A program made the position numbers and the translations under genes. This document shows, one piece after another, positions 11,817 through 31,347 of a DNA stretch of 64,000 bases (position 1 is its first letter; each line of letters opens with the position of its first letter). Source of the stretch: Actinomycetota bacterium (GTDB lineage Bacteria > Actinomycetota > Thermoleophilia > Gaiellales > Gaiellaceae); contig PMOB01000010.1 in NCBI GenBank assembly GCA_003161615.1, positions 62,001 to 126,000 on the forward strand, written 5' to 3'. The notes under the pieces were generated by a model. That model was given only the letters and a program-made list of their open reading frames with translations. It ran no database searches and was not told where the DNA came from.

Positions 11817-12091
11817 GACAGTGCTATCGGCAAATCAGCCGCGGAAATGGAGCACAACCCGACCACGCGCGGGGGCTCGCCAGCCTTCGCGCCGACTAGC
11901 GGACAGCTTCTCCATCGCCTACTCCGTCGACTGTGCCCCGTGCTCGTGCCCCGGCGTGACTGACGGGAGTCCTTCGGAAGCCTCTTCTCTCCGTCCAACC
12001 GGCGGCCGGGCCGCACCGGCGGCTCGTGACGCGACGGAAGCCACGGGAAAGCCTCGGAGATATATCCGGGGCGGGGGTGGAGCTAAAGGAG
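11817..12091. other. Intergenic stretch without a visible gene
   Basis: About 275 bases between the 5' end of the Mrr-like gene and the 3' end of the tRNA-Thr. The open frames here have implausible composition. I see no repeat or strong promoter beyond what the flanking genes need. Confidence 0.4.
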
Positions 12092-12163
12092 AGCCCGAGG
12101 AGGGGATTGAACCCTCGACCCCGTGCTTACCATGCACGTGCTCTACCACTGAGCTACTCGGGC
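12092..12163 (-). tRNA. tRNA-Thr (anticodon GGU)
   Basis: On the minus strand the sequence folds as a 72-nt cloverleaf. The acceptor is gcccgag/ctcgggc, the D arm gctc-agtggta-gagc, the anticodon stem cgtgc/gcacg with loop atggtaa (anticodon GGT), and the T arm gaggg-ttcaatc-ccctc. All stems pair. It lies inside the island next to an integrase remnant, so it may be carried cargo, a second insertion target, or a piece of chromosome enclosed by nested insertions. Confidence 0.93.
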
Positions 12164-12625: not shown

Positions 12626-15600
12626 GTGGCCCGCCGCGCACTCGCGGTCGCGCGAGGAGCCATCGCAAGGATCTACAACTCATCAGCAGCCCTCCTGGGT
12701 CGCCGACGGGCCGTTCCGAACGGGGCCGGCGAATACGCTCTTCTCACCGGTGCCGCTGTCGAGAGCTCTGCGCTCGATCAGCTCGATCACGCTGCGATTG
12801 CCTGTGGCCTCGCGGCCGCGATCCGCGACACGCCCGCTGAATCCTCGCTCGGCATCGCCCTGTACGGCCCGTGGGGTCAAGGCAAGAGCACAATCGGAGC
12901 TCTCCTACGGGAGCAGCTTGAGGAGGAGTGCTCCTCGGGCCGCTATGCCTTCATCCGCATCGACGCGTGGAAGTACGCGCACGAGCGGGAACGCCAGCCG
13001 CTTCGCCGCCATTTCCTCATCGCCGCCTATGAGGCGGCGGGGCTGAAGCGCAAGGCAGCTGCGCTTAAGCGCTTGTTCAATGCCGAGCTCACCGGGGCGA
13101 TCTCTCGATCGCGGACGCCGCTCGGGCAAGGCCGTCTGCGCGGCAGCTGGGAGGTCGCGCTTGCCCTTCTCATAGTCGCCGCCTTTGCGCGTTTCGGCTA
13201 CGTCGGTCATCGCCACGCCGTCAAACACTGGGCGCACATACTCGGCGCAGCTGGCGTCCTTGGCGCAGTTGTCACCGTCGTCTCTTCGTTGATCTGGGAC
13301 AGAGCTCGTATCGCCGCCCGGATCAATCCTTTCGGCTCGGTCGAGGAGTACGACGATCAACTCACGCGCCTGATCGAGAAGGATGCGCGCGACCGCGACC
13401 ACCGCCCGATCGAACGGCTCATCTTCTTCATCGACGACCTCGACCGCTGCCGAGACGAGCTCATCGTCGAGGCGATCGACACACTTCAGGCCTTTTTCGG
13501 TCGATCGCGCTGCGTCTACATCGTCGCCGCCGACCGCGAGCAGCTACGGCGAGCGGTACGCGAGCAGGCCGTTCCGCCGGCGTTGGGATCGGCAACGCGG
13601 GGCGCGACGGTCGCAGATGAATCGTTCCTGGAGAAGATCTTCCAAGTTGCGGTTGAAGTGCCGCCGCCGCTCGCCGGCACGATGAGCGTGTACGCGCATG
13701 CACTCACAACGAGCACCCACTCTGACGCCGATCCTTCGGTGTGGTCGGAGATGGAGCCGGATGAACGCGAGGGGATTGTTGACTTGCTCGTACATCCACA
13801 GGTCGCCTCGCCACGACAAGTACGCGTGGTCCTGAACGAATTCACCATGGCGCTGAACATCGCCCATCACCGAGAGGCGGCGGCGCGAGTACACCTCGGG
13901 CATCGCCCGCTCACGGTGAACAAGCGCTTCTTGGCGAAGCTGACCGTCTTGAGAGTGCACTTTCCATGGTTCTACGAGCTCCTACCCTCTCGGCCAGAGC
14001 TTCTTGTCCGAGCTGAGGACCGCGTCGAGATGTTGCAACTGAGGTCGGCTGTCGCGCCTGACGATGTGATCGCCTGGGGCGAGATCGACAAGGCGGCCGT
14101 GCTTGCTGCAGGTGAGCAGCTGGCCTACCTCAGCGCAGATGAATCGAGCGAAGAGAAAGGTGAATTCGCACCAAGGCGCCAGGCCTTCATTGACCAACTG
14201 CTGCGCGATCTCGAGGGGTACCTGTCCTATGCGAGCGACGTGGTAGCGCGCGACGTCTTGCAGGTCGAGGAGTTCATCTTCCTACGCGGGCGCAAGGAAT
14301 TCGAAGAGCTGCCGGGCGAAGATGGAGCTGCCTACCGACTGGCCATCCTGCAAGGCAACGTCGACCGCATCGATGAGCTCGCGAAAGCGGAACCAGCGCT
14401 GCTGCCGAATGCACTGCGAGCTGCGCGCGCGCAACTCCGCCAGGCCCGAGGCGCCGGTAGCGACAGAGTCCGTAGGGCGCTCCTCGGTCTGCTCGCATGT
14501 GCGCCTGCGGATGTCGTCGCAGTCGAAGCAGCCGATGCCGCGCGGGCGCTCTACCCCGATGACTTCACCGAGGAGGCGATGGAGCGTGACAGCGTTGCTG
14601 GCGTCCGACGCCTCATCCCAGTCATGGACCCGCGCACGCTGAAAGCGTTCGTCTCGGTATTCTCGCCGGACAACAGCGATGACCTCTTCGCCGTCGCGCA
14701 AAGGTCGCTCGTCGTCAACGAGCCGCAGGCGTGGCGACGCGCGCTCAATGCAGTGGCGGGCAACGTGGAGCTTCTCGACAGATTGGCCTCCGAGCTCCCG
14801 ACGAGACTCAGCGGCGAGGAGGCCAAGCCTTTGTTGCCGCCGTCACTGGCCGGGCTTCGTCCGGTGATCGAGTCGCCTGACGAGTTCCTCGATGAGAAGG
14901 TCTCCATCGGCGCTCTCGACCTCGCTCAAGATCAGCTAACGGTACTCCGGCCGAGCGGCGAAACGCTCCCCGTTGTAGTGCCGGATGAGCTTGTGGGAGC
15001 TGCGGCAGACCATACCTCCGGCGGCGCGATCGACCTAGTCGCGGCCCGGAGGGCGGACGGCACCTGGCAGGCCGTGAGCCTCACCGATATCAACGGAGAG
15101 CGGCTCACGGTGAGCAATCCCCCGACTCTGATCTCGCGGGAAGCGCGCGAGGCTGCGTTTGCATTCATCGGCGGACTGGCCGACCGAGGCGCCAGTACGC
15201 CATCGGCGCTGAGCTCGCTACTCGATTGGGACTACACCACTGCACTCGACCGCGTGGCGGCCTTCGACCTTCTCACCGCAGGGATTTCGCGGCATCCCGA
15301 TGCTCCAATCGAATTCGCGCAGACGTGCATCAGTCGCGCACAGATAGCGCGCGCGATGGTGGCGGGCACGGAGTCGAGCGATCTCGACCAGGAAATGATC
15401 GAAGCGCTTGCAAACGCGACAATACGATTGCTGGCTGCGCTGACCTCGCTTCCGGCGAACCTGGTACGTCAAGTCGCCGAAGGCATCGTCGGGGTCGCCA
15501 CCGGTCTCGTACTCCACGCCTCTCCGCAAGCGCGGGACGAGCTGGCTGCAGGCCTCCACTCGGCGCGGACGTCGATCCGTCGCCGCGCCGTCTTCAATCT

Positions 15601-16594
15601 CATTTCCGGCCTGCTCCCCGATGGCCGTCGCGAGCGCGTGGCCCTCATCAACGCGATCATTGAGCCAGTCGACCCCGTAGAAGCGTTGAAGCTCTATGTC
15701 GCAGACATGCGCAAGATTGACGTCGAGCGGCGCGAGACCGAGGATAATGCCGAAAGAAACGCCCTCGGTACTGAGCTCGAGGCGTATCTTCCCCGGATCG
15801 CGCCGCTCGCCCACAGCACGAGGGCCGCGCCCGTTCTCTCGCAACTCCCACTTGTACCGCGCAGACGCTACGCCGGACTGGTCATGCAACTCATCGAGAC
15901 GGAGGGCGCGTCCCTGCAGACGACTCAAGCGTTTCTAACAGCGGCTGCATCGCACGATTCGCAATCACTCGAAGCGACCGCACGGTTCCTCATCCGAACG
16001 AAGCGAACATCTGATGAAGATGTTGACGCTGTCCTCGCCGGCCACGGCACAGCAACGGCGCGAGGCGAGGACGTCGCCTCGCCAGTGCTCGACTATCAGC
16101 AGCTCGTGCAACGGCGTGTCCCCCGCCTGGAGCAGGACGCGCGCATCGCTGAGCTCGTCAACTGGAAGACGGCAGAGCAAGTTGGGGGCGACCAGTTGGT
16201 GCGCCGCTTGCTCGAGTCGGCGGCGAAGCTGATCCGAACCGACAAAGATCGCGCTCGTGTGCGCATGCGGCTCGCCGAGTCGTGGGGAGCTGCAACCACG
16301 ACGCGCAGACGCGAGGCTGCCGCCGGCTACGCCAAAATCCTCGACCGCACGAAGACGCAAGATCAGATTGTCGAGGTTCTCGACTCGCTACATCGCTTCT
16401 TCAGAGAGAAGGAGGCCGACGAGAAAGTCAAGCTGCGCAAGGCTGTCGGTGCTGCACTTCCGCGTATCCATGGTCGTGGACCGCTCGACGATGAGACCCG
16501 CAATCGTTATTACGACCTGCTCTCTGATCTTGATCTCCTAGGGACAGCCAGTCGGCCCCTGTCTGCGTCCGCTCGCCACCTTCTCGGACTCTAG
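12626..16594 (+). CDS. Large KAP-family P-loop NTPase
   Basis: 1322 residues from a GTG with the strong ribosome site gaggagga just upstream. The Walker A motif is GPWGQGKS (81-88). A hydrophobic insertion with two probable membrane helices follows (about residues 172-190 and 205-230), then Walker B LIFFIDDLDRC (about 265-275) and an arginine-containing sensor segment. This layout, with membrane helices between Walker A and B, is the hallmark of KAP NTPases, which are peripheral or integral inner-membrane ATPases. The 900-residue C-terminal region is helical and unrecognised. Bacterial KAP proteins are frequent in plasmids and defence islands; a phage-defence role here is inferred from position. 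It is not obviously in an operon. Confidence 0.87.
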   Translation: MARRALAVARGAIARIYNSSAALLGRRRAVPNGAGEYALLTGAAVESSALDQLDHAAIACGLAAAIRDTPAESSLGIALYGPWGQGKSTIGALLREQLEEECSSGRYAFIRIDAWKYAHERERQPLRRHFLIAAYEAAGLKRKAAALKRLFNAELTGAISRSRTPLGQGRLRGSWEVALALLIVAAFARFGYVGHRHAVKHWAHILGAAGVLGAVVTVVSSLIWDRARIAARINPFGSVEEYDDQLTRLIEKDARDRDHRPIERLIFFIDDLDRCRDELIVEAIDTLQAFFGRSRCVYIVAADREQLRRAVREQAVPPALGSATRGATVADESFLEKIFQVAVEVPPPLAGTMSVYAHALTTSTHSDADPSVWSEMEPDEREGIVDLLVHPQVASPRQVRVVLNEFTMALNIAHHREAAARVHLGHRPLTVNKRFLAKLTVLRVHFPWFYELLPSRPELLVRAEDRVEMLQLRSAVAPDDVIAWGEIDKAAVLAAGEQLAYLSADESSEEKGEFAPRRQAFIDQLLRDLEGYLSYASDVVARDVLQVEEFIFLRGRKEFEELPGEDGAAYRLAILQGNVDRIDELAKAEPALLPNALRAARAQLRQARGAGSDRVRRALLGLLACAPADVVAVEAADAARALYPDDFTEEAMERDSVAGVRRLIPVMDPRTLKAFVSVFSPDNSDDLFAVAQRSLVVNEPQAWRRALNAVAGNVELLDRLASELPTRLSGEEAKPLLPPSLAGLRPVIESPDEFLDEKVSIGALDLAQDQLTVLRPSGETLPVVVPDELVGAAADHTSGGAIDLVAARRADGTWQAVSLTDINGERLTVSNPPTLISREAREAAFAFIGGLADRGASTPSALSSLLDWDYTTALDRVAAFDLLTAGISRHPDAPIEFAQTCISRAQIARAMVAGTESSDLDQEMIEALANATIRLLAALTSLPANLVRQVAEGIVGVATGLVLHASPQARDELAAGLHSARTSIRRRAVFNLISGLLPDGRRERVALINAIIEPVDPVEALKLYVADMRKIDVERRETEDNAERNALGTELEAYLPRIAPLAHSTRAAPVLSQLPLVPRRRYAGLVMQLIETEGASLQTTQAFLTAAASHDSQSLEATARFLIRTKRTSDEDVDAVLAGHGTATARGEDVASPVLDYQQLVQRRVPRLEQDARIAELVNWKTAEQVGGDQLVRRLLESAAKLIRTDKDRARVRMRLAESWGAATTTRRREAAAGYAKILDRTKTQDQIVEVLDSLHRFFREKEADEKVKLRKAVGAALPRIHGRGPLDDETRNRYYDLLSDLDLLGTASRPLSASARHLLGL

Positions 16595-19497: not shown

Positions 19498-20388
19498 ATG
19501 ACCCCTTATGCGGCTGTCATCGTCGGCGGGCTCGTCGACGCGGCCGTCCTCGCGGTGGCAGCCGTGGGCTTCTCGCTCCAGTTCAGTGTCACCAACTACG
19601 TGAACTTTGCTTATGGCCAGCTGATCACGCTCGGCGCCTTTATGGCGTTTGTAGTTGACGCCCACCTCAAGGTCGGCATCTGGGTTTCCTTTCTCGTTGC
19701 CGGCGTGGCGGTAGCGCTATTGGCCTACGTAATGGGCCAATGGGTGTACGCCCCGTTCTATCGCCGGAGACCCCAGGTCCTCTACATCCTCGTGGTTAGC
19801 TTCGCAGTCGCTCTCGTATTGAGCAGCGTCTACCTCATCATCTGGCAATCGAATACCTACGAACTGCAGTACTTCAGCAACACGGCGGTGTATAGGACCG
19901 GGCCGTTCATTTGGGCTGCCGACGAACTTGTCGATATCGGCGGCGCCGCTCTCATACTCGTGCTTCTCTACCTAGGGCTGCGATTCACAAAGCTCGGCAA
20001 GAGCATGCGTGCCGTGGCTGACAATCAATCGCTCGCAGCAGTGGCTGGTCTCAACAGCCGACGGATTGTCGGTTACGCATGGCTGATCAGCGGCTTCCTC
20101 GCCGGCTTGGCAGGCGTCGTCGAAGCAGACCTTCTGCATGCCTTCGATGTGACGCTCGGCAGCACTTTTCTGTTCTTGATGATCACTGCCGTGTTGGTCG
20201 CCGGGATCGGTCGTCCTTACGCCGCGGTTATCGGAGCGCTGCTCATCGCATTTGCGGGTCAAATATCGGTGTATGTGATCGGAGCGGCGTATGCGCCGGT
20301 GGGCGCTTTCGCAACGCTGCTCGTGATTCTGCTCGTCAGGCCCCAGGGCATCCTTGGTGGAGGGCGGACGACGCTTCACAATGCCTAG
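19498..20388 (+). CDS. Branched-chain amino-acid-type ABC transporter permease (LivH-like)
   Basis: A 296-residue integral membrane protein with about eight helices, starting at ATG 19498. It has the family segments FSLQFSVTNYVNFAYGQLITLGAF, KLGKSMRAVADNQSLAAVAGLNSRRI (the cytoplasmic EAA-like loop that contacts the ATPase) and a C-terminal VLLVRPQGILGG. LivH-type permeases form the inner-membrane channel with LivM. It is the first gene of a four-gene importer operon. In this catabolic context the solute is more likely an organic acid or amide than a branched-chain amino acid. Confidence 0.93.
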   Translation: MTPYAAVIVGGLVDAAVLAVAAVGFSLQFSVTNYVNFAYGQLITLGAFMAFVVDAHLKVGIWVSFLVAGVAVALLAYVMGQWVYAPFYRRRPQVLYILVVSFAVALVLSSVYLIIWQSNTYELQYFSNTAVYRTGPFIWAADELVDIGGAALILVLLYLGLRFTKLGKSMRAVADNQSLAAVAGLNSRRIVGYAWLISGFLAGLAGVVEADLLHAFDVTLGSTFLFLMITAVLVAGIGRPYAAVIGALLIAFAGQISVYVIGAAYAPVGAFATLLVILLVRPQGILGGGRTTLHNA

Positions 20389-20412
20389 TCAGCAAGTCAG
20401 AGCGGAGCGCCT

Positions 20413-22269
20413 GTGACGCCGACCGAGCTATACCTGGTCACGCTAGGCGTGTTCGCTGCGGTTACCGCTATCCAAGCACTCGGATTCAATCTGCAGTTCG
20501 GATATGCGGGGGTCGTGAACATAGCGTTCGTCGTATTCGTCGCTATCGGCGCGTACACGACTGGAATCGCCGAGCTCCATCGGCCTTCGCGAGGGACAGT
20601 GACCACCTACATTGGGGGCTTCGGCTGGAGCTTCTTCCCGTCGCTGGCCTTCGGCGTCGTAACCACGATGGCATGTGGCGGAGTAATTGGTCTCGTGCTG
20701 TTTCGACGATTGCGCCACGACTACCTAGCGCTTGGGCTACTCGCTATTTCACAAGGCTTGGTGATCCTGGTCACTGATGATGTGGGGCTATTTAACGGCC
20801 AGTCGGGCGTGGCGAGCGTGCCGGGGCCGTCGGGCGGTCTAGTCATCACCGGTCGAGAACAGCTCGGGTTCCTCGGCATTTCAGCTGCGGCGCTCGTGAT
20901 CGTCTATGCCTTTCTATCCAGGCTGACGAATTCGCCTTTCGGACGGACAGTGCGCGCAGCCCGCGAGGATGCGGATGCACTGACGGCCATCGGAAAGAAC
21001 GCAGACCATTTCCGATTGATCGCCTTCGTCATCGGATGTGGAATAGCCGGTCTTTCTGGCGGCTTGTTCGTGACGTATGTCGGAGGCTGGAATCCGAGTT
21101 CCTGGCAACTTACTGAGACTCTGATCCTCTTCTGCGCAGTGATCGTGGGTGGACGCGCGCGGCACATAGGTGCTGTGACCGGCGCCATCGTGCTCGTCGT
21201 GATTACGCAGGCTACGACCTTTATTCCGGGGTTCGTCTCGCCGCAGTACTTGCCGAACGTTGAAACGATGTGTACGGGACTTCTAATCTTGGTATTCCTT
21301 TGGTGGCGCCCCGAAGGTATTTTCCCCGAGAAGAGGCAGAGCATCCGGCTCGACTCCACGGCCGGCGCCGTGCTCGGACTGCTGTCCACCCGTCCGAGTG
21401 TGCAGCGAGAAGGAGCGGCCACTCCCAGGCCGGAACTGAGCCTTAGCTCAACCCGTACCGGCCGGCCGGATGCGGCCCGGCGCAGCCACGCAGACGTCGC
21501 GCTTGAAGTCGAAGACCTGTCGTGTTCATACGGCGGAGTACAGGCTGTCCGTGGAGTTAGCCTGCAGATCCCTCATGGGCGATTCGTCGGACTGATCGGC
21601 CCCAACGGCGCGGGAAAGAGCACTGTGATCGAATGCCTTTCCGGATTCAATGCGTCATATAGAGGCACGGTCAAACTGTTCGGGACCGATATCTCGCGCA
21701 AAGCGCCGCACAAGATCGCCGGGCTGGGGCTCGTGAGAGGGTTCCAACAGGCCAGGGTGTTCGGCCAGATGACCAGCCTTGACAACATCAGCGTCGCCGA
21801 GAGAAGACAAAACGGCGAATCCGCTCTGAAGGCCCTCATCGGTGGATGGCGAGGCGCTGAGGCGCTGCGATATGAACGGAGCGAGGAATTCCTCTCGCTC
21901 TTCGAGATGACAGACGTAAAAGACAACTACGGCCGCGAGCTCTCGGGCGGGCAGCAAAGGCTTCTGGAGCTCGCGCGCTTGTTGAGTTCTGACCCGGATG
22001 TTCTTCTCCTTGACGAGCCGTTCGTGGGCGTCAGCCCCGCGAACCGCGAGAAGTTGTGCCAAATGCTCATGCATATTTGCCATGAGCGGAACGTCACCAT
22101 TCTTATGGTTGAGCACCGGCTCGAGCTCGTTGAGCGGCTTTGTGAGGTCGTGGTCGTAATGGCGGAGGGAAAGGTCATTGCGCAAGGACCGATGAGCGAG
22201 GTGCGTACAGACTCGATGGTCTTGGACGCTTACCTTGGGAGAGCCCCAGTGGAGGCGCTCCATGACTAG
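20413..22269 (+). CDS. Fused ABC permease and ATPase (LivM-LivG type)
   Basis: 618 residues from GTG. Residues 1-310 are a LivM-type permease (FNLQFGYAGVVNIAFVVFVAIGAY; VRAAREDADALTAIGKNADHFRL; WWRPEGIFPEKR). A linker of about 50 residues follows, then a complete LivG-type ATPase: Walker A GPNGAGKST (about 398), LSGGQQRLLELARLL (signature), Walker B VLLLDEPFVGVSP and the switch His in VEHRLELV. LivM and LivG are usually separate; this natural fusion fixes their stoichiometry. The 3' end overlaps the LivF gene by eight bases. Together with the neighbours it makes a complete high-affinity importer. Confidence 0.94.
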   Translation: MTPTELYLVTLGVFAAVTAIQALGFNLQFGYAGVVNIAFVVFVAIGAYTTGIAELHRPSRGTVTTYIGGFGWSFFPSLAFGVVTTMACGGVIGLVLFRRLRHDYLALGLLAISQGLVILVTDDVGLFNGQSGVASVPGPSGGLVITGREQLGFLGISAAALVIVYAFLSRLTNSPFGRTVRAAREDADALTAIGKNADHFRLIAFVIGCGIAGLSGGLFVTYVGGWNPSSWQLTETLILFCAVIVGGRARHIGAVTGAIVLVVITQATTFIPGFVSPQYLPNVETMCTGLLILVFLWWRPEGIFPEKRQSIRLDSTAGAVLGLLSTRPSVQREGAATPRPELSLSSTRTGRPDAARRSHADVALEVEDLSCSYGGVQAVRGVSLQIPHGRFVGLIGPNGAGKSTVIECLSGFNASYRGTVKLFGTDISRKAPHKIAGLGLVRGFQQARVFGQMTSLDNISVAERRQNGESALKALIGGWRGAEALRYERSEEFLSLFEMTDVKDNYGRELSGGQQRLLELARLLSSDPDVLLLDEPFVGVSPANREKLCQMLMHICHERNVTILMVEHRLELVERLCEVVVVMAEGKVIAQGPMSEVRTDSMVLDAYLGRAPVEALHD

Positions 22270-23104
22270 TAGCTCCATGAGCAGCGCGGTTCCTGCGGCG
22301 GCTGCTGAGCGCGAGTTGTCACTCGTGAACATCACCGCTGGCTACGGGACGCATGCCGTCGTCTTTGACGTCAACTTGAACTTCGCGCCGGGCACGATTT
22401 CGTGTCTTATCGGCCCGAACGGAGCCGGCAAATCGACCGTGCTCAAGGCGATGTTTGGCGACGCTCGCATGTTTGCCGGCGAGGTCTTTCTTGGCGACGA
22501 GGAAGTCCGGCCGACCGGCAGAGACCTCGTTCCTCGTGGCGTGAGCTATGTGCCACAGCAAGCGAACGTGTTCCCTTCGCTAACCGTCGCAGAGAACTTG
22601 GAGATCGGAGCTTATGTCCGGCAAGGCCATGGCGGCGTCGACCACGTTTTGGCGCTCTTCCCGGAGTTGCGCGATCTCCTTCGTCGGCACGCCAGCAAGC
22701 TCAGTGGTGGGCAGCAGCGAATGGTGGCCATCGGTCGTGCACTTATGTCCGGCCCCGACTTCCTACTGCTGGACGAAGCGACGAGCGGATTGGCTCCAGC
22801 CGTCGCTCAAACTCTCTGGCGGCGTCTGAGTCAACTCGCGGCAACTGGGGTCGGGGTCATAGCTGTGGAGCAGAACGTTGACACGGCGCTTGAGCTCGCG
22901 TCTGAGGTCAGCATCCTGGTGAGCGGGAGTATCGCCTTTTCAGGCGGCGTCGCCGACGTGACCCCGGAACTCCTAGAAGACGCGTTCCTCGGTAGCGCCC
23001 CCCGCGTGGAGCCTGAAGCGGAGAGCTCTGACGCGGATGCCGCGAGGAACGGCGAACTCGGCGTCCCCGAGAACACCAATGACGGAGGTGACCGTCCTGC
23101 CTGA
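22262..23104 (+). CDS. ABC transporter ATP-binding protein (LivF-like)
   Basis: 280 residues from ATG 22262, inside the end of the preceding gene; a TTG at 22235 is less likely. Walker A is GPNGAGKST, the signature KLSGGQQRMVAIGRALM, Walker B FLLLDEATSGLAP and the D-loop/switch region VEQNVDTALELA. The C-terminal 40 residues are acidic and extra to the usual LivF. It pairs with the fused LivM-LivG ATPase to drive import. The gene overlap indicates translational coupling. Confidence 0.94.
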   Translation: MTSSSMSSAVPAAAAERELSLVNITAGYGTHAVVFDVNLNFAPGTISCLIGPNGAGKSTVLKAMFGDARMFAGEVFLGDEEVRPTGRDLVPRGVSYVPQQANVFPSLTVAENLEIGAYVRQGHGGVDHVLALFPELRDLLRRHASKLSGGQQRMVAIGRALMSGPDFLLLDEATSGLAPAVAQTLWRRLSQLAATGVGVIAVEQNVDTALELASEVSILVSGSIAFSGGVADVTPELLEDAFLGSAPRVEPEAESSDADAARNGELGVPENTNDGGDRPA

Positions 23105-23160
23105 CGTGGCTCGCACCATTACACGAATCGAATGGAAGCTAGGAGGAGGTGTAGGAACAC

Positions 23161-24459
23161 GTGAGTCCAGTGGCTAACAACCATAGGCACAAGCACGGAC
23201 GTGGCGTTTTCAGCATGTGCGTCGCGGCGATCGCATGTATAGGCGTATTCCTAGTCGTCGGTAACGCTGCAGGGTCGACGACCAGTGCGAAGCACGCTGC
23301 TGCTAAGGGGGCGATCAACGTCGGATTCTTCGGGCCTCTCTCGGGCGCATACGTGGGAGCCGGCGATCAGCTCTTGTCGGGCGCCCGATTGGCGGCCGAT
23401 CTCATCGACGCGAGCGGCGGGGTAATGGGTCACGGCGTAAACGTCATCCCTGGCGACGACGGGGGAGACGCGACAGACGCCGTGCCTCTCCTTCGCAAGA
23501 TGCTTGCCGTCGACCACCTATCGGCGATGATGGGTGGAATCACCTTCGATTATGGAACGGCATTGCCGATTCTGAACCGGGCGAAGATGGTCGACTTCAT
23601 GCACGTCGGCGATCCGGCGCTCGATCACAAACTGCTCAAGTACGTCTTCAGCACCGCTCCATCGGACTCCTTGACGGGTGCTGCGATGGCGTACTGGGCG
23701 AACGTCAAGCATTACAAGAAGATCGCCCTGGTCTTCGACACAGGGCAGGGCTCTCAGACGCTGTTGCCGGAATTGAAGCATGCGGCAAAAGTGCTCGGAA
23801 TGAAGATCGTAGTTAGTGTGACTCTGCCGTTGGGAACGGTTTCATATGAGTCTGAGGCGCAACAGGTCGTTAGCGCAAAGCCGCAGGCGATTCTGACACA
23901 GGTCGAAACCCCACAAGCAGCCGGTCCCTTCTTCACCCAGCTGCAGAGGGACGGCGGGGGTTCAATTCCCCTGGTCGGGAGCGACGCCATGAGTAACCCG
24001 AGCATCGTGAGTGCGATGGGCGCAAGTGAAGCCGCGAAACTCGAGTCCGTTACCGCCGCTGTCGGTTCGGGGAAGAGCTTCCAGACCTACAAGAAGGCGT
24101 ACGAGAAATACATCGGCGGTACGCTCAGTTACCTCGCCGGCTACTACTACGATGGCACTAACGTCGCTGCCCTAGCAATGCTCGCGGCGCATTCCACGAA
24201 GCCGTCGGTATACGTCAAATACATCTCGAAAGTGACTACACCTGGTAAAGGCGTGACCGTCGTGCACAGTTTTGCTCGCGGCGCTGCGCTTCTCAGGAAA
24301 GGTAAGAGGATCAAGTACTTTGGAGTAGGCACTCCGATGACGTTCAACAAGTACAACCGCGTCACGGGATCGTACGACGTTGTCCAGCTGTCAACTAGCG
24401 GCACGACGACAACGGTCGGAACTATCAGCGGTACAAGCCTGCAGCCTTTGCTCGGCTGA
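23161..24459 (+). CDS. ABC transporter substrate-binding protein (LivK / Peripla_BP_6 type)
   Basis: 432 residues from GTG with the ribosome site ggaggtg. The N-terminal signal segment (SMCVAAIACIGVFLVVGNAAG) has no lipobox. The mature part starts INVGFFGPLSGAYVGAGDQ, the family's first strand, and continues with GDDGGDATDAVPLLRKML and later GYYYDGTNVAALAML. This family binds amino acids, amides, or aromatic and aliphatic acids outside the membrane. The solute is unknown. It is the last gene of the importer and is followed by a strong terminator. Confidence 0.93.
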   Translation: MSPVANNHRHKHGRGVFSMCVAAIACIGVFLVVGNAAGSTTSAKHAAAKGAINVGFFGPLSGAYVGAGDQLLSGARLAADLIDASGGVMGHGVNVIPGDDGGDATDAVPLLRKMLAVDHLSAMMGGITFDYGTALPILNRAKMVDFMHVGDPALDHKLLKYVFSTAPSDSLTGAAMAYWANVKHYKKIALVFDTGQGSQTLLPELKHAAKVLGMKIVVSVTLPLGTVSYESEAQQVVSAKPQAILTQVETPQAAGPFFTQLQRDGGGSIPLVGSDAMSNPSIVSAMGASEAAKLESVTAAVGSGKSFQTYKKAYEKYIGGTLSYLAGYYYDGTNVAALAMLAAHSTKPSVYVKYISKVTTPGKGVTVVHSFARGAALLRKGKRIKYFGVGTPMTFNKYNRVTGSYDVVQLSTSGTTTTVGTISGTSLQPLLG

Positions 24460-24600: not shown

Positions 24601-25170
24601 TTACCGGTCGCGAGGGGCTACGCCAGCATTCTCGTCGAGCTGAATGCGGACCGCGCGTACGAACGTCGCAAGCGTCCGATAGAAGCAGACGAGAAAGATG
24701 AGCTCCATCAACTCTGCCGGCGCAAACCGATCCTCGAGCATGCGCCAGGTTTGGTCTGAGACGTCTTCCAGTGAGTAGAGCTCGTCGACGAACGCAAGAA
24801 GTTGAAGGTCAGTGTCGCCCCACGCATGGCGATCTAGCGGTTGTGACAGAGCGACGACCTCGCTGGCGGTCAATCCGACCATCCTTGCCAGGGACGAATG
24901 GTGCGCAAGCTCGTACTGCGATCGCATCTGAGCTGCTATCCGGAGAATCACAAGCTCACGCTCGCGCGGCGCGAGCGTCCCTTGCGTCATGAATAGGCCC
25001 CCTAGCGCATTGACCCGGCGGCAAAGGAGCGGATGCTGCGCCAGCGTTGCGAAGATGTTGGGCGGCCCGCCTCCGTGTGGCGGGATGGTCTTGGCCAGGA
25101 GGGCTTCCTGCTCGGGTGTAGCATCCTCGACCGGGGAGATGCGCGGTTGTTGTGCCTCGGGCTTAATCAC
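24601..25170 (-). CDS. Carboxymuconolactone decarboxylase (AhpD-like) family protein
   Basis: A 189-residue helical protein containing RERELVILRIAAQMRSQYELAHHSSLARMVGLTASEV, the core of this superfamily. AhpD-type members have a CxxC pair at this point; here the residues are RSQYELAHH, so there is no redox cysteine and an AhpD-type peroxidase-reductase role is unlikely. Such Cys-less members accompany many catabolic clusters; some act as lactone decarboxylases or related lyases. It faces the importer operon tail to tail and lies beside the isopropylmalate-dehydrogenase-like gene. Confidence 0.87.
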   Translation of the reverse strand: MIKPEAQQPRISPVEDATPEQEALLAKTIPPHGGGPPNIFATLAQHPLLCRRVNALGGLFMTQGTLAPRERELVILRIAAQMRSQYELAHHSSLARMVGLTASEVVALSQPLDRHAWGDTDLQLLAFVDELYSLEDVSDQTWRMLEDRFAPAELMELIFLVCFYRTLATFVRAVRIQLDENAGVAPRDR

Positions 25171-25396: not shown

Positions 25397-26509
25397 GTGA
25401 GCGTCACCGAAGAAAGCCCGAGTCAGATTCCTGGGCCGGACAAGCGCGAGAGGCGGTCTCACAGGATCGCCGTGATGGGTGGGGAGGGCGTAGGCCCGGA
25501 GTTGGTCGCACATGGGATGCGTGTACTCGAGCGGGCGGCCGACCTCTTTGAATTCGACTATGAGGTCGTGGACTATCCACACAGATCGTCCCATTATGAG
25601 GCCACCGGAGAACTGCTGACCCCCGAGTCGATTGAGGCGTTCCGGCAACTCGATGCAGTCTTCTACGGCGCTCACGGAGACCCGCTACCGCCGGGACGCG
25701 GAACGTCGCTCATTGTTCGGCTAGGTCAGGCTCTCGATCTTGGAGTAGGTGTCCGGCCCGCCACGCTGTACTCGGGGCATTTAAGTCCGTTGAAAGGCCG
25801 AGCCGATGGCGACATCGACATGGTGATTGTTCGTGACACTACCGAGGACTGCTTTGCCATTCCGGGTGGCCTAATGTCCGCCGATACCCCGCACGAGGTC
25901 GCGGTGGGACTGTTGATGTACACGCGCCGCTCCGTCGAGCGCGTTGTGCGCTACGCATTCGAGCTGTCACAGACTCGCGGGAAGAGACTGACCGTAGTGT
26001 CGCAGGCCAATTCACTATTGAGCCACACCATTTGGCCAAGAGTCGTGCACGAGCTAAGCGTCGAGTACCCGGATGTCGCCGTGGATGAGATGTACCCGGA
26101 CAACGCCGCTGGGACGTTGGTGCTGCGACCGGAGCACTTCGATGTGATCGTGACCACCTTCTGGTTGGGCGGGATTCTCACCAACGCAATGGCCGCAGTG
26201 GTTGGTGGCATCGGCGTATGCGCCGATGTACGAATCAGCCCCGACGCCCGCGTCGGCATCTTCCAATCGGCCCACGGCGCTGCGCAGAAGTACGAAGGGC
26301 TAGATCGAGTGTCGCCCATGGCCACCCTCCGAGCGCTCGCTCTGATGCTCACGCACATTGGGCAGCCGGAAGCCGGACACCAACTCGAGCAGGCGATTCA
26401 CACGGCAATCAGCAGCGGGCGGGTGCCTGACGTCAGCACGCGCAGTCCGGTTGGCACGAAGGAGGCGACCGACATCGTCATCGATGAGCTACAGCGGGGC
26501 AAGGTCTAG
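25397..26509 (+). CDS. Isocitrate/isopropylmalate dehydrogenase family protein lacking catalytic residues
   Basis: 370 residues from GTG. The fold is unmistakable: IAVMGGEGVGPELVAHGMRVL at the N-terminus, VGVRPA, YPDNAAG with D235, and a C-terminal GIFQSAHGAAQKYEG. However, the usual catalytic Lys (KxN segment) is Gln203 in VVSQANSLL. The two metal-binding aspartates of the GDILSD motif are Gly259 and Asn263 (LGGILTN). Members with Lys and three Asp oxidise and decarboxylate 2-hydroxyacids with NAD and Mg. Losing three of them argues against that reaction. It heads the cluster with the selenoprotein, 40 bases upstream, and may act on the same substrate in another way. Confidence 0.88.
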   Translation: MSVTEESPSQIPGPDKRERRSHRIAVMGGEGVGPELVAHGMRVLERAADLFEFDYEVVDYPHRSSHYEATGELLTPESIEAFRQLDAVFYGAHGDPLPPGRGTSLIVRLGQALDLGVGVRPATLYSGHLSPLKGRADGDIDMVIVRDTTEDCFAIPGGLMSADTPHEVAVGLLMYTRRSVERVVRYAFELSQTRGKRLTVVSQANSLLSHTIWPRVVHELSVEYPDVAVDEMYPDNAAGTLVLRPEHFDVIVTTFWLGGILTNAMAAVVGGIGVCADVRISPDARVGIFQSAHGAAQKYEGLDRVSPMATLRALALMLTHIGQPEAGHQLEQAIHTAISSGRVPDVSTRSPVGTKEATDIVIDELQRGKV

Positions 26510-26550: not shown

Positions 26551-27105
26551 GTGCGTGTCTACGAGCCCACGGTCGAATTCGAGCGCGAACCGACCTCTGA
26601 GAGGGCCCATCAAGCTATCGAGGGCGGCTCGCTGGGCATTTTGAGCAATGGCTGGAGAAGCTTCCACTTCCTTGCCGACAGATGGGAAGAACTCGCCACC
26701 GGTCCAGCCTTCGGCGTGGCGGAGGTCATCAACCGTAAGCATCACGATCCGGCGGGGCCTGCTCCCGAGGAGCACATCGCTGATGTGATCGTGACTGGAG
26801 GCGTCCTTTCGGGCGTCGGCAACTGAGGGGGTTGCACGGCGTGGAGTTGCCACGCCACGTTGCAAGTGGCCGATGCGGGCCTGCCCGTCGTCTTGATCGT
26901 GACCGAACGCTTCGAAAGCCTCGGCAGGTCGATTCTCAAGAGCAAGGGGAGAGGCGATGTCCCGGTCTACGTGCTTCCGTCAGACATCGAGACGCGCTCG
27001 GAAGATGAGCTCCGTGAACTGGCGGCGGAGACGCTGCCGGAGCTAATCGAATTGCTCGGAAGTGCCCAGCTCGATCTACCAATAGGAGAGGCGCTGAGTG
27101 ACTGA
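26551..27105 (+). CDS. UGSC-family selenoprotein (Sec92 encoded by in-frame TGA)
   Basis: 184 residues if the TGA at 26824-26826 is read as selenocysteine. The two apparent reading frames on either side are in the same frame and together give one protein: GTG start at 26551 behind aaggaaggag, then residues up to GVGN, Sec92-Gly-Gly-Cys95, then TAWSCHATLQVADAGLPVVL. This matches the UGSC family, whose members carry U/C-G-S/G-C in the context GVGD(U/C)GSCT. A GC-rich hairpin follows the TGA at the distance bacterial SECIS elements need. The reaction of the family is unknown; the U-x-x-C motif suggests redox or nucleophilic chemistry. The stop overlaps the next gene. Confidence 0.87.
26832..26865 (+). 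promoter_or_regulatory. Bacterial SECIS-like hairpin in the selenoprotein mRNA
   Basis: Seven GC-rich pairs, ggcgtgg (26838-26844) with ccacgcc (26850-26856), enclose the loop agttg. Five further pairs, ttgca (26832-26836) with tgcaa (26861-26865), lie below an internal loop. Eighteen bases separate the TGA from the apical loop, and a G is the second loop base; both fit published bacterial SECIS rules for SelB binding. The hairpin also codes for protein, as bacterial SECIS elements do. Confidence 0.85.
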
Positions 27106-28144
27106 AATGCTAACTGCGCGACCGATTGAGATTGATGGCTCCGCGTCCGATGTAAACGACTACTTCGAAGCGCAAGAGTGGACAGACGGCCTTCCGATCA
27201 TTCCTCCGACGGAGGATCTGGTTTCGGCCTTTATCGAAGCGGCGGGGCTTCCGGGCGAGCATCAGGTCGCGCTCGTTCCTCCGCTCGATGGGCGCGCGAC
27301 AGTCGAGAAGATCGCGATCAACGCGGTGATGGCTGGATGCCGCGCGGAGTACATGCCAGTCCTCATCGCAGCCGTCGAAGCAATGTGCGACGAGCGGTTC
27401 AACCTCGGACCCGTGCAAGCCACAACCAATGGAGCCGGCGTCGCCGTAATCATCAATGGACCGGTCCGTCACAGAATCAAACTGAACTGCAGTAGAAACT
27501 GCCTAGGACCCGGCACTCGCGCCAACGCGACGATCGGACGCGCCGTACGCCTGATCATGTTGAACCTCGGAGGCGGACGACCCGAGGTAGTCGACAAGGC
27601 CGTGCTCGGGTTTCCGGGGAAATACACACTCTGCTTCGGTGAGATCGAAGAGGAGAGCCCGTGGGACCCCCTTCACGTCGACCGTGGGTTTGCTCGCGAA
27701 GACAGCGTTGTAACGGTCGTGTCGGTTAACAGCGCTCTGAACATCTTGACGGCCAACCTGTCGGATGCAGAGGACAAGCTCGCATTCCTCGGCGACCCGT
27801 TCAACGTCCGCGGAACTAACAATGTGTGCGTCGGTTCAGGCGAGGTCGTCGTGGTTCTAACTTCGGGAGACGCCCAGGTGCTTGCCGATGCCGGTTTCAG
27901 CAGGGCCGATGTTCAGCGGCATCTCTACATGAACTCGGGCATTCCGGAGGACGAGATACCAGCGAAGCTCGAGCGCCGGGCGCGCATCGCAGCTGTCACG
28001 ACAAACGGGATCGTGCGGCAGGTACGACGGCCGGAGGACATCATGGTCGTCGTTGCAGGTGGCCCGGAGCCGTATCACGCCATGGTCATGCCGACGTTCG
28101 GCCATTCTTGGTCGGCGTCGGCGAAAGTCCGCTCAGGCACCTGA
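27098..28144 (+). CDS. Conserved protein commonly linked to UGSC proteins, function unknown
   Basis: 348 residues from GTG 27098, which overlaps the selenoprotein stop (ATG 27107 is an alternative). Conserved-looking stretches are WTDGLPIIPPTEDLVSAFIEA, ATVEKIAINAVMAGCRAEYMPV, NCSRNCLGPGTRANATIGRA and GFPGKYTLCFGE(I)EEESPWDPLHV. I know this family only as an actinobacterial and chloroflexal protein of unknown function that travels with UGSC-type proteins. Eight-base overlap and same direction imply co-expression, and possibly a complex. Several cysteines (C85, C101, C131, C135) could matter for redox exchange with the selenoprotein. Confidence 0.85.
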   Translation: MTEMLTARPIEIDGSASDVNDYFEAQEWTDGLPIIPPTEDLVSAFIEAAGLPGEHQVALVPPLDGRATVEKIAINAVMAGCRAEYMPVLIAAVEAMCDERFNLGPVQATTNGAGVAVIINGPVRHRIKLNCSRNCLGPGTRANATIGRAVRLIMLNLGGGRPEVVDKAVLGFPGKYTLCFGEIEEESPWDPLHVDRGFAREDSVVTVVSVNSALNILTANLSDAEDKLAFLGDPFNVRGTNNVCVGSGEVVVVLTSGDAQVLADAGFSRADVQRHLYMNSGIPEDEIPAKLERRARIAAVTTNGIVRQVRRPEDIMVVVAGGPEPYHAMVMPTFGHSWSASAKVRSGT

Positions 28145-28204: not shown

Positions 28205-29029
28205 ATGGCTATTCACATCAAGGAAAAGCTGAGCAAGGGAGATGTGATCACCGGGGTCGTGACCTTTTCGCCGTGTGTCGAGATGGTGCAGACGATTGCC
28301 CACGCAGGCTTCGACTTCATCATGATCGACCAGATGTACGGCAGCATCACATGGGAACACGCTGCGAATATGGCGAGGGCGGCACGGCTATCCGGTATTA
28401 CGCCGATCGTTCGCCTTCAGGCAGAGCCGTGGGCAGTGAAGGACAACCAACAGCTCGCCGTTGATACCGGCAAGGCGTTGAGTGTCGGGTTCCAGGGAAT
28501 CAACTTCTCGGTTAGCTCAGCGGATGAGGTACGCCGAGTCGTGGATGTCGCGCTCGGGCACGGTGGCTGGCACAGAGAACTTCAAGTCATCCCGTGGACG
28601 CGTGAGACTTTCCCGCAGTATCTCGAGCAGATCAGAGAGGACACCTTCATCGGCGTAAGCGTCGAGGGGCAGTCGGCCCTTGACGAAATTGAGGAGATCG
28701 CTGCCGTACCGGGTCTCGACTCGATCTCGTGTTCGACTACGGATCTATCGATCACGCTCGGGCACGGCGTCGTCAGTGACAATCCCGACACTTGGGCGCT
28801 TTTCGACAAGCTGCGCGATATCGCCGACAAGAATGGTCTCGTGCTTCGCTCCAACACGGGAATGGGTTACTCGACCTTCCCCGAGATGAAGAGTCGAGCA
28901 AAGGACCTGATCGAGCGAGGCGCCCGTATGATCGTCTTCCAGCACTCCGAACTCCTCCTGCAAATGGCAGGCAAGTACGTCCTTGAGGACTTGCCTGTTG
29001 GGCGCCGTCCAGAGCTGCAGACTGCTTGA
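28205..29029 (+). CDS. HpcH/HpaI-family aldolase
   Basis: 274 residues from ATG. The family features are GVVTFSPCVEMVQTIAHAGFDFIMIDQMYGSITWE, TPIVRLQ, VGFQGINFSV and IGVSVEGQSALDEIEEIAAVPGLDSI, in which acidic residues bind a divalent metal in a TIM barrel. The enzymes split 4-hydroxy-2-oxoacids into pyruvate (or a relative) and an aldehyde. Typical members are 250-270 residues, as here. It follows the selenoprotein pair on the same strand and overlaps the next gene, so a carbon-carbon cleavage step belongs to this pathway. The substrate cannot be read. Confidence 0.9.
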   Translation: MAIHIKEKLSKGDVITGVVTFSPCVEMVQTIAHAGFDFIMIDQMYGSITWEHAANMARAARLSGITPIVRLQAEPWAVKDNQQLAVDTGKALSVGFQGINFSVSSADEVRRVVDVALGHGGWHRELQVIPWTRETFPQYLEQIREDTFIGVSVEGQSALDEIEEIAAVPGLDSISCSTTDLSITLGHGVVSDNPDTWALFDKLRDIADKNGLVLRSNTGMGYSTFPEMKSRAKDLIERGARMIVFQHSELLLQMAGKYVLEDLPVGRRPELQTA

Positions 29030-29064
29030 ACGCATCCGACACGCCGCAGTCGAGCGCCAACGGC

Positions 29065-29985
29065 ATGACCGAAGCCACAACTGTTGACGTCATCGTTGTC
29101 GGTGGCGGCCCAGCCGGCATTCAAGCCGCAATCGAATGCGCTAACCGGGATGCCAGTGTCGTTCTCGTCGAACGCTTCGCTCTCGGAGGCGAGCTGATCA
29201 ACATCGATGCCATGACTGGGGTTCCCGGCCAAGCTGGGATCGCCGGAGCCGAGTACGCCGCGATCCTCTCGGACGCATTGTTCCAGACACCAGTTCGAAT
29301 GGAGCTCGAAGACGTCACAGAAATTGCGCGTGCCGGCACAGGCTGGAAGGTCGGGACCCGCGGTAGCGCCTTCAACGGGAACGCTCTGATCGTGTGTTCG
29401 GGGGCACGGCCTGAGAATCTTCCGGCTCGCGGTGAGGCGGGCATCGACCCCTTCCGTGGTAACGGGATCTCTACATGTGCACCGTGCGATGCGCCTCTCT
29501 ATCGCGCCAAGACGGTCGCCGTAGCCGGCGGTGGAGATACAGGTGTTGAGGCGGCGCTCGCCCTGACTGCCGCCGGCGCACGGGTCGTGCTCTTTGAGAG
29601 AAGCAGTCAGCTCACGGCGCAAGGACCTTTGCTGCGGACTCTTGCGTCAGTCGCAGGAGTCGAAGTGCGCTGTAACACTGCAGTCATCGATGTTGGCGGC
29701 GAAGGGAGTGTCTCTGAGGTGCTCGTTCAAACAATCGATGGCACTCATACCGCTGCCGTGGGCGGTGTAGTTTTGGCCGTGGGCCTCCGGCCGAACTCGG
29801 ATCTGCTCAAAGGTGTCGTTGACCTCGATCAACGAGGTGCGGTGCTGGTCAATGCCTCACTTGCTGCCTCGGAAGCGAACCTCTACGCCGCGGGCGATGT
29901 AAGGAGTGGCTCCAGCTTCCGCTGCGTCGGCGCGCTCGGGGATGGAACGGTCGCAGGCGCCGCTGCTCTTGTCGCCATCTCCTAG
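29065..29985 (+). CDS. FAD-dependent pyridine-nucleotide oxidoreductase, thioredoxin-reductase-like
   Basis: 306 residues from ATG 29065; a TTG at 29026 overlapping the aldolase stop would give 319. The FAD-binding motif VVGGGPAGIQAAIECANR is N-terminal, and GGGDTGVEAALAL is the second dinucleotide fold. STCAPCDAPLY holds C138 and C141, the redox pair of thioredoxin-reductase-type enzymes. LYAAGDV closes the FAD site. In the thioredoxin reductase family NADPH reduces FAD, then the disulfide, then a partner protein. The adjacent selenoprotein with a U-x-x-C motif is an attractive partner, but this is inference. Confidence 0.9.
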   Translation: MTEATTVDVIVVGGGPAGIQAAIECANRDASVVLVERFALGGELINIDAMTGVPGQAGIAGAEYAAILSDALFQTPVRMELEDVTEIARAGTGWKVGTRGSAFNGNALIVCSGARPENLPARGEAGIDPFRGNGISTCAPCDAPLYRAKTVAVAGGGDTGVEAALALTAAGARVVLFERSSQLTAQGPLLRTLASVAGVEVRCNTAVIDVGGEGSVSEVLVQTIDGTHTAAVGGVVLAVGLRPNSDLLKGVVDLDQRGAVLVNASLAASEANLYAAGDVRSGSSFRCVGALGDGTVAGAAALVAIS

Positions 29986-30081: not shown

Positions 30082-31347
30082 ATGACGAACTCCTCTAGCG
30101 CGACAACGCCATCGACGGGGCGGCTCGCGGGCCTAACGGTCATCGATCTAACGCAAGTGGTTAGCGGCGCCGTCACAACGATGTTTCTCGCGGACTTCGG
30201 TGCGAACGTAATCAAGATCGAGCCGCCCCAGGGTGACGCTTACCGGATTTCGGGCTATCCGATCGCTGGCGAGGCGGATACGACGAACTTGAACATCTTG
30301 CGCTTCTCCCGTAACAAGCGAAGCGTCGTTCTCGACCTTAAGAACGAAGCCGGTCGCGCTGTGCTGGCCGAGCTCATTTGCCGTGCAGATGTCCTGGTCG
30401 AGAACTTTCGCCCCGGCGTTCTAGGCCGATTCGGATTCGCTCCGGAGGCTCTGAGGAAGCTGAACCCAGCACTCATCTACACGAGCGTAAGCGGGTTTGG
30501 GCACGACGACATCTTTGAGAGTCCCTACCGGGACCGCCCGGCGTACGCGATCATCGTTGAGGCGATGGCAGGGCTTACGCACCTTGCCGGGGACGGAGAC
30601 GGGCCTCCAGTCTGGATGGGGTTTGCGATGGCCGACATCTTCGCTGGTGTTCTCGCCTTCTCCGGAACACTCCTCGAGCTTCTGAATCAGGATCGCCCCG
30701 GCGGCCGCGTCGACATTTCAATGTACGACGGAGCGATCTTCATGAACGAGCTCGCGGTGATCTGCCGAACGGTTCTGGGAGAAGTGATGGGGCGCGGCCA
30801 CTACACCCTGCAGTCGCCCTGGGGGCCATACCCGACATCCGACGGTCACGTCGCAATCGCGCTCATCAACGAGAAGCAGTGGCAGGCGCTGTGCGCCCTC
30901 ATTGGGCGCACCGATCTAGCTGCCGACGAAAGGCTCGCATCCGGTCAGGGGCGATCCGTTCATCATCATGAGCTCGTAGAGCCGGCGATCGGAGAGTGGA
31001 CGAGTGCACGCACCACTGCGGACTGCATGGCGCTCCTGCTTGAGAGCGACATTCCGGCCGGGCCAGTCAATACGGCCGAGGATGTTGTCAACTGTCCGCA
31101 GGTGGCCGCACGGAAGATGCTGATCGATGTCGAGGACGACGTTGTTGGCTCTTTTAAGGTCGTTGGAAATCCGATCGTATTGGGCGAGAGCGCTTCGATT
31201 GGCGGGAGGGTTCCGCGGCTCGGAGAGCACACCTCCGCTGTGCTAGAGGAACTGCTCAGCCTTGATGGTGCGGCGCTTCAATCCTTGCGAGAGCGCGGTG
31301 CTTTCGGTTCCGAGAGCGGCAGGGTCGAGGAACTCACGACGCGTTAG
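30082..31347 (+). CDS. CaiB/BaiF family CoA-transferase
   Basis: 421 residues from ATG. Class III CoA-transferase features are VIDLTQVVSGAVTTMFLADFGANVIKIE, RNKRSVVLDLKNEAGR, ADVLVENFRPGVLGRFG (Asp for the acyl-CoA intermediate lies in the following region) and SGFGHDDIFESPYRDRPAYAIIVEAMAGL. These enzymes move CoA between organic acids, activating a catabolic substrate. It ends the plus-strand catabolic gene series that begins with the isopropylmalate-dehydrogenase-like gene. An IclR regulator is convergent with it. Confidence 0.93.
   Translation: MTNSSSATTPSTGRLAGLTVIDLTQVVSGAVTTMFLADFGANVIKIEPPQGDAYRISGYPIAGEADTTNLNILRFSRNKRSVVLDLKNEAGRAVLAELICRADVLVENFRPGVLGRFGFAPEALRKLNPALIYTSVSGFGHDDIFESPYRDRPAYAIIVEAMAGLTHLAGDGDGPPVWMGFAMADIFAGVLAFSGTLLELLNQDRPGGRVDISMYDGAIFMNELAVICRTVLGEVMGRGHYTLQSPWGPYPTSDGHVAIALINEKQWQALCALIGRTDLAADERLASGQGRSVHHHELVEPAIGEWTSARTTADCMALLLESDIPAGPVNTAEDVVNCPQVAARKMLIDVEDDVVGSFKVVGNPIVLGESASIGGRVPRLGEHTSAVLEELLSLDGAALQSLRERGAFGSESGRVEELTTR

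Follow-up and report, generated by a model that had tools for sequence, protein, structure and literature searches.

The window analysed here, a stretch of 64,000 nucleotides, lies in a 2.32 Mb genome assembly that is 95% complete. It contains a short gene with an in-frame TGA, set among other genes on the same strand, with the following features.

19498–24459, + strand: branched-chain-amino-acid-type ABC importer (permease 19498–20388, permease-ATPase 20413–22269, ATPase 22235–23104, binding protein 23161–24459)
25397–26509, + strand: beta-decarboxylating dehydrogenase of the isocitrate/isopropylmalate/tartrate type, directly upstream of the UGSC gene
26551–27105, + strand: UGSC-family selenoprotein gene, GTG start, in-frame TGA as Sec92, TGA stop, 184 aa
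26824–26826, + strand: the in-frame TGA, read as selenocysteine (U92)
26833–26864, + strand: bacterial SECIS hairpin (core stem 26838–26844/26850–26856, loop 26845–26849)
27098–28144, + strand: partner protein of 348 aa, without a Pfam or NCBIfam family, its first 8 bases shared with the 3' end of the UGSC gene
28205–29029, + strand: HpcH/HpaI-type aldolase
29026–29985, + strand: thioredoxin-reductase-like flavoprotein (CAPC motif), which may donate electrons to the Sec/Cys pair
30082–31347, + strand: CoA-transferase family III

The cluster also holds CoA-transferases and, further on, an acyl-CoA dehydrogenase. Elsewhere in the window, a carboxymuconolactone-decarboxylase-like protein (24601–25170, minus strand) weakly matches the model of a YciW-related (seleno)protein, NF053654, and a 1322-aa protein with a KAP NTPase domain (12626–16594), possibly a defence or mobile-element gene, adjoins a tRNA-Thr (12091–12163).

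Two open reading frames of 91 aa (26551–26826) and 81 aa (26860–27105) share one frame, with the TGA at 26824–26826 plus 33 bases between them, and a Shine-Dalgarno-like AAGGAAGGAGA lies directly 5' of the GTG start. Reading through the TGA yields 184 residues with U92-G-G-C95 within GVGNUGGCT; the initial annotation, made from the sequence, had proposed just such a split selenoprotein of the UGSC family, and the positions, motif and context it gave are correct. The joined protein scores 100.3 bits against the Pfam UGSC family (PF24696, curated cut-off 25 bits), far above its separate halves (19.7 and 43.0 bits), both of which align to the family, and U92-G-G-C95 is aligned with the Sec/Cys of the relatives. 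Among 152 relatives this column holds TGA in 136 and a Cys codon in 13, the Cys-containing homologues carrying their Cys at position 92 as had been anticipated, with Ala, Gly, Gln or Met in a few.

The gene adds a divergent new member to this known selenoprotein family; it scores 93 bits compared with about 125–190 for most relatives. Its novelty had been overrated: UGSC-containing selenoproteins were published in 2008 as a major family of the Global Ocean Sampling data, being some of the most frequent selenoproteins of aquatic samples (255 sequences, 37 samples; PMC2398784). A 2026 review lists UGSC, and such families are largely uncharacterised (PMC13188914). The expectation that automated annotation would call two broken genes holds in a softer form: the protein reaches 59.8 bits on the NCBIfam equivalog NF041046, below the cut-off of 125, so the gene could well be split, and it therefore exemplifies how such a selenoprotein escapes annotation.

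The TGA is followed by a spacer of 11 nt (26827–26837) and a 7-bp stem (GGCGTGG/CCACGCC) closed by the loop AGTTG, with G second, which lies 18 nt 3' of the TGA. The in-frame TGA is hence accompanied by a SECIS hairpin at a distance permitted in bacterial selenoproteins, and stem, loop, spacer and apical-loop position are exactly those first proposed; the hairpin is conserved in the family. The 25-nt piece has a folding energy of −13.8 kcal/mol (z −3.1). Additional lower pairs, which had been offered in its support, do form when the flank is included (−16.1 kcal/mol), but an alternative fold competes in the wider 56-nt context and these pairs are not conserved, being paired in 37–40% across the family. 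Over the 8 pairs scored for the core stem, of which the outermost is weak, Sec rows show pairing in 82% of cells and Cys rows in 56%, compared with 17–52% once one arm is slid; most Sec rows have the loop AGTNT. Where codon 100 encodes Val, its silent third base pairs with the third base of codon 98 in all 70 informative Sec rows, with both GC and CG pairs observed, a count of the kind that kinship inflates. As the covarying position is silent, protein constraint is an unlikely cause. The stem in the window carries G-C where most relatives have T-A, a compensated change. An Rfam scan of 26700–27000 gave no match, as expected, since bacterial SECIS elements do not form one curated Rfam family.

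The same genome encodes the selenocysteine machinery, at the following positions.

C8:108619-108709: tRNA-Sec, anticodon TCA
C8:105606: SelB
C8:102959: SelA
C24:25024: SelD

The search for selA, selB, selD and tRNA-Sec that the initial annotation had called for was therefore positive throughout. Of the 16 genomes in the genus, 15 have matches over the tRNA-Sec cut-off, though a few of these matches may be tRNA-Ser (one tRNA-Ser of the home genome also exceeds this cut-off). UGSC itself was found in the home genome and is absent from its 15 congeners, hence the machinery is a native trait of the genus, with the UGSC cluster as an accessory. GC content is 0.60–0.62 at 20–32 kb of the window compared with 0.63–0.69 on both sides, which fits an acquired segment; the genomic island previously suggested is consistent with this dip and with the 15 congeners, but neither proves it. 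A formate-dehydrogenase-like gene of the home genome (G000:C17:64074-64625, minus strand, L181) has an in-frame TGA at the classical position (CNRTUHAPS), followed by a strong hairpin, and is likely a second selenoprotein.

Could this instead be an old, decayed UGSC gene in which the TGA arose by nonsense mutation or by a sequencing error, so that only fragments are made? The divergence of the protein and the lack of UGSC in any congeneric genome would suit such decay. Against it stand the 136 relatives with TGA in the same column, the intact hairpin with a compensated pair of its own, GC by codon position that is coding-like in both halves, and the Sec machinery in the same genome. Decay is close to refuted and barely credible to us, and the UGA at codon 92 is almost certainly decoded as selenocysteine.

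The 348-aa protein encoded next has no match in Pfam even at E 10 and none in NCBIfam at 0.001. Relatives are present in 36 of 399 genomes of the host's class, and a UGSC gene lies close by at all 30 partner loci fetched from that class. Across named genomes the family includes at least 570 relatives, in Chloroflexi, Proteobacteria, Binatia, Rokubacteria, Mycobacterium and others, and with no Pfam or NCBIfam match it merits a database entry. One carrier of the pair, in its Sec form, is the culturable Xenophilus azovorans DSM 13620 (L121). A same-strand UGSC gene occurs within 600 nt, in either order, for 149 of 167 partner domains; conversely, the partner was found at each of 26 independently found UGSC loci. 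One clear fusion, without an intervening stop, was checked by eye (L045), whereas a count of 43 pairs in the "same open frame" was kept out of the fusion evidence because the TGA is read through there. Within the partner family Cys81 is near-invariant (96%) and Cys179 mostly conserved (88%), alongside the motifs WTDGLP and NAVMAGC.

Structure prediction gave confident models of both proteins. In the AlphaFold2 model of UGSC (pLDDT 88.5, pTM 0.82), strands and helices alternate through five units, and Sec opens the helix that follows strand 3. The best structural matches (Z about 10) are to receivers, flavodoxins and further Rossmann-like proteins; this arrangement is widespread and tells little about function. 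As modelled, UGSC does not resemble the thioredoxin fold put forward in 2008, in which the redox motif comes after strand 1, with the caveat that the absence of that fold from the match list excludes nothing. The partner model (pLDDT 93) has no clear match among PDB structures, the best being an encapsulin with Z 6.3 over 83 residues, ahead of cyclic amide hydrolases and class I fumarase at Z about 5; all of these were taken as background. Searches of PDB sequences with single proteins and with profiles returned no believable match for UGSC or partner.

Profile comparison points to a distant relative of UGSC. In hhalign, 157 UGSC sequences matched the Sec domain of GrdB/PrdB at 96.5% (E 7.7e-10), Sec on Sec, and 24 sequences did so at 94.4% (E 8.5e-8), or 81.5% with the motif masked, compared with 0.1–4% for controls with reversed or shuffled columns (E-values being those of single comparisons). 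In GrdB/PrdB-type proteins the Pfam domain ends just before the Sec and the next segment reads UGTGTRCGSTLAKELERAGIPT, which the UGSC segment UGSCTSCSxHDxxxLExxGVP resembles; Cys95 is invariant in 24 aligned UGSC members. PrdB is homologous to GrdB (PMC13188914). By sequence profile, UGSC is remotely related to the GrdB/PrdB Sec domain over a short region. A direct match to PF07355 was found neither for the window protein by Pfam scan nor in the home genome, which also has no match to PF09338 of the pyruvoyl-forming partner GrdE/PrdA, and no relation between the 348-aa partner and GrdE could be detected (hhalign 0.2%). Many genomes of the phylum also encode, apart from glycine reductase genes, short GrdB/PrdB-like proteins whose Sec motif is of the PxUPxC type (L171–L180).

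UGSC-partner pairs elsewhere lie near TctC solute receptors, CoA-transferases, TPP enzymes and acyl-CoA dehydrogenases. The TrxB-like and HpaI genes were considered as fixed members of the module and rejected, as they are rarely found at other loci; the TrxB-like gene is beside the pair at 3 of 110 loci, the window locus included. No relatives turned up in a search of viral contigs. One Chloroflexi genome (JACPQD) has many UGSC-partner copies in different clusters (L081, L082, L083, L087, L097, L104, L106), and looks as if the pair had multiplied for different substrates.

To our knowledge, no member of the UGSC family has been assayed. On balance, we think that UGSC and its 348-aa partner probably form a two-subunit Sec/Cys reductase, remote kin of GrdB/PrdB, that acts on a small organic acid. 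We infer complex formation, chemistry, electron donor and substrate class along the following lines. SelB would bind the hairpin that lies 11 nt past the UGA and decode codon 92 as Sec, and the UGSC protein and the directly following 348-aa protein would assemble into an enzyme in which the catalytic Sec92/Cys95 pair sits on the Rossmann-like alpha/beta domain of the UGSC subunit and the partner supplies the substrate site. The adjoining importer would take up the small organic acid. Modelled on glycine and D-proline reductase, the reaction would begin with an attack of Sec on the bound substrate, a bond of which would be cleaved reductively. Cys95 would then resolve the intermediate to a selenenylsulfide, to be restored by a thioredoxin-reductase-like protein such as that at 29026–29985. 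The role of this last protein is suggested only by its presence in the window cluster. It is no regular neighbour of the pair, and its scarcity at other loci counts against the reductase model, as do the lack of a detected relation between partner and GrdE and the few relatives with another residue in place of Sec/Cys. The most economical reading would nevertheless be that the pair catabolises a small acid through reductive cleavage of a bond by Sec.

Two other functions were weighed against this reductase. The Sec/Cys could serve as a non-redox nucleophile, as in an isomerase, lyase or hydrolase-like enzyme, attacking an organic acid in an active site whose other half comes from the partner. 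Neighbours that are catabolic and CoA-related, not redox, would accord with this, as would the faint resemblance of the partner fold to cyclic amide hydrolases and class I fumarase, which however falls within background. Members lacking Sec/Cys also exist, and since they have Ala, Gly, Gln or Met in its place they cannot use Sec/Cys chemistry; yet the resolving Cys95 is invariant in aligned members and Sec is kept in most, and retention of Sec usually goes with redox chemistry. We regard this alternative as rather unlikely. Less likely still is the 2008 suggestion, a general thiol/disulfide oxidoreductase of thioredoxin-like fold whose substrates would be proteins or peroxides. The UxxC motif speaks for it, whereas the confident model alternates strands and helices in a flavodoxin- or receiver-like manner with Sec after strand 3, the profile matches GrdB/PrdB, and a constant partner from outside the known redox families together with catabolic neighbours better fits a metabolic enzyme.

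UGSC-like proteins near a partner gene with Ala, Gln, Gly or Met at the active position were seen at L075:883-1443, L082:4140-4658, L114:7023-7481 and L046, and are perhaps non-redox versions.

The partner gene and the tie to GrdB/PrdB, both missed by the initial annotation, are the part worth following, as a constant partner and a remote link to Stickland-type reductases give a concrete hypothesis on UGSC chemistry. More broadly, and tentatively, UGSC and its unnamed partner may be a widespread two-subunit selenoenzyme, distantly related to glycine and proline reductase and re-used in many catabolic clusters of Chloroflexi, Proteobacteria, Actinobacteria and others, with a partner fold not yet among solved structures.

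Compared with the described UGSC family (PF24696, NF041046), the window protein is alike in sequence family, UxxC motif, in-frame TGA and a SECIS element directly downstream, and differs in having UGGC in place of UGSC and in its low NF041046 score. Glycine reductase protein B and D-proline reductase PrdB (PF07355, TIGR04483) share with UGSC a remote profile similarity over about 70–90 residues, Sec on Sec, and the gene of their Sec subunit likewise adjoins that of a second subunit. UGSC differs from them in lacking PF07355, in a partner unrelated to GrdE, in a home genome without GrdB or GrdE matches, and in its place within catabolic clusters that extend to Proteobacteria and Mycobacterium. 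The 2008 survey also mentions a UGSC/Unknown_1 fusion (PMC2398784), which resembles the pair described here in that a UGSC protein is fused to an unnamed conserved domain. Unknown_1 was reported as limited in distribution (PMC2398784), whereas the partner is nearly universal beside UGSC; Unknown_1 may be the partner family found here.
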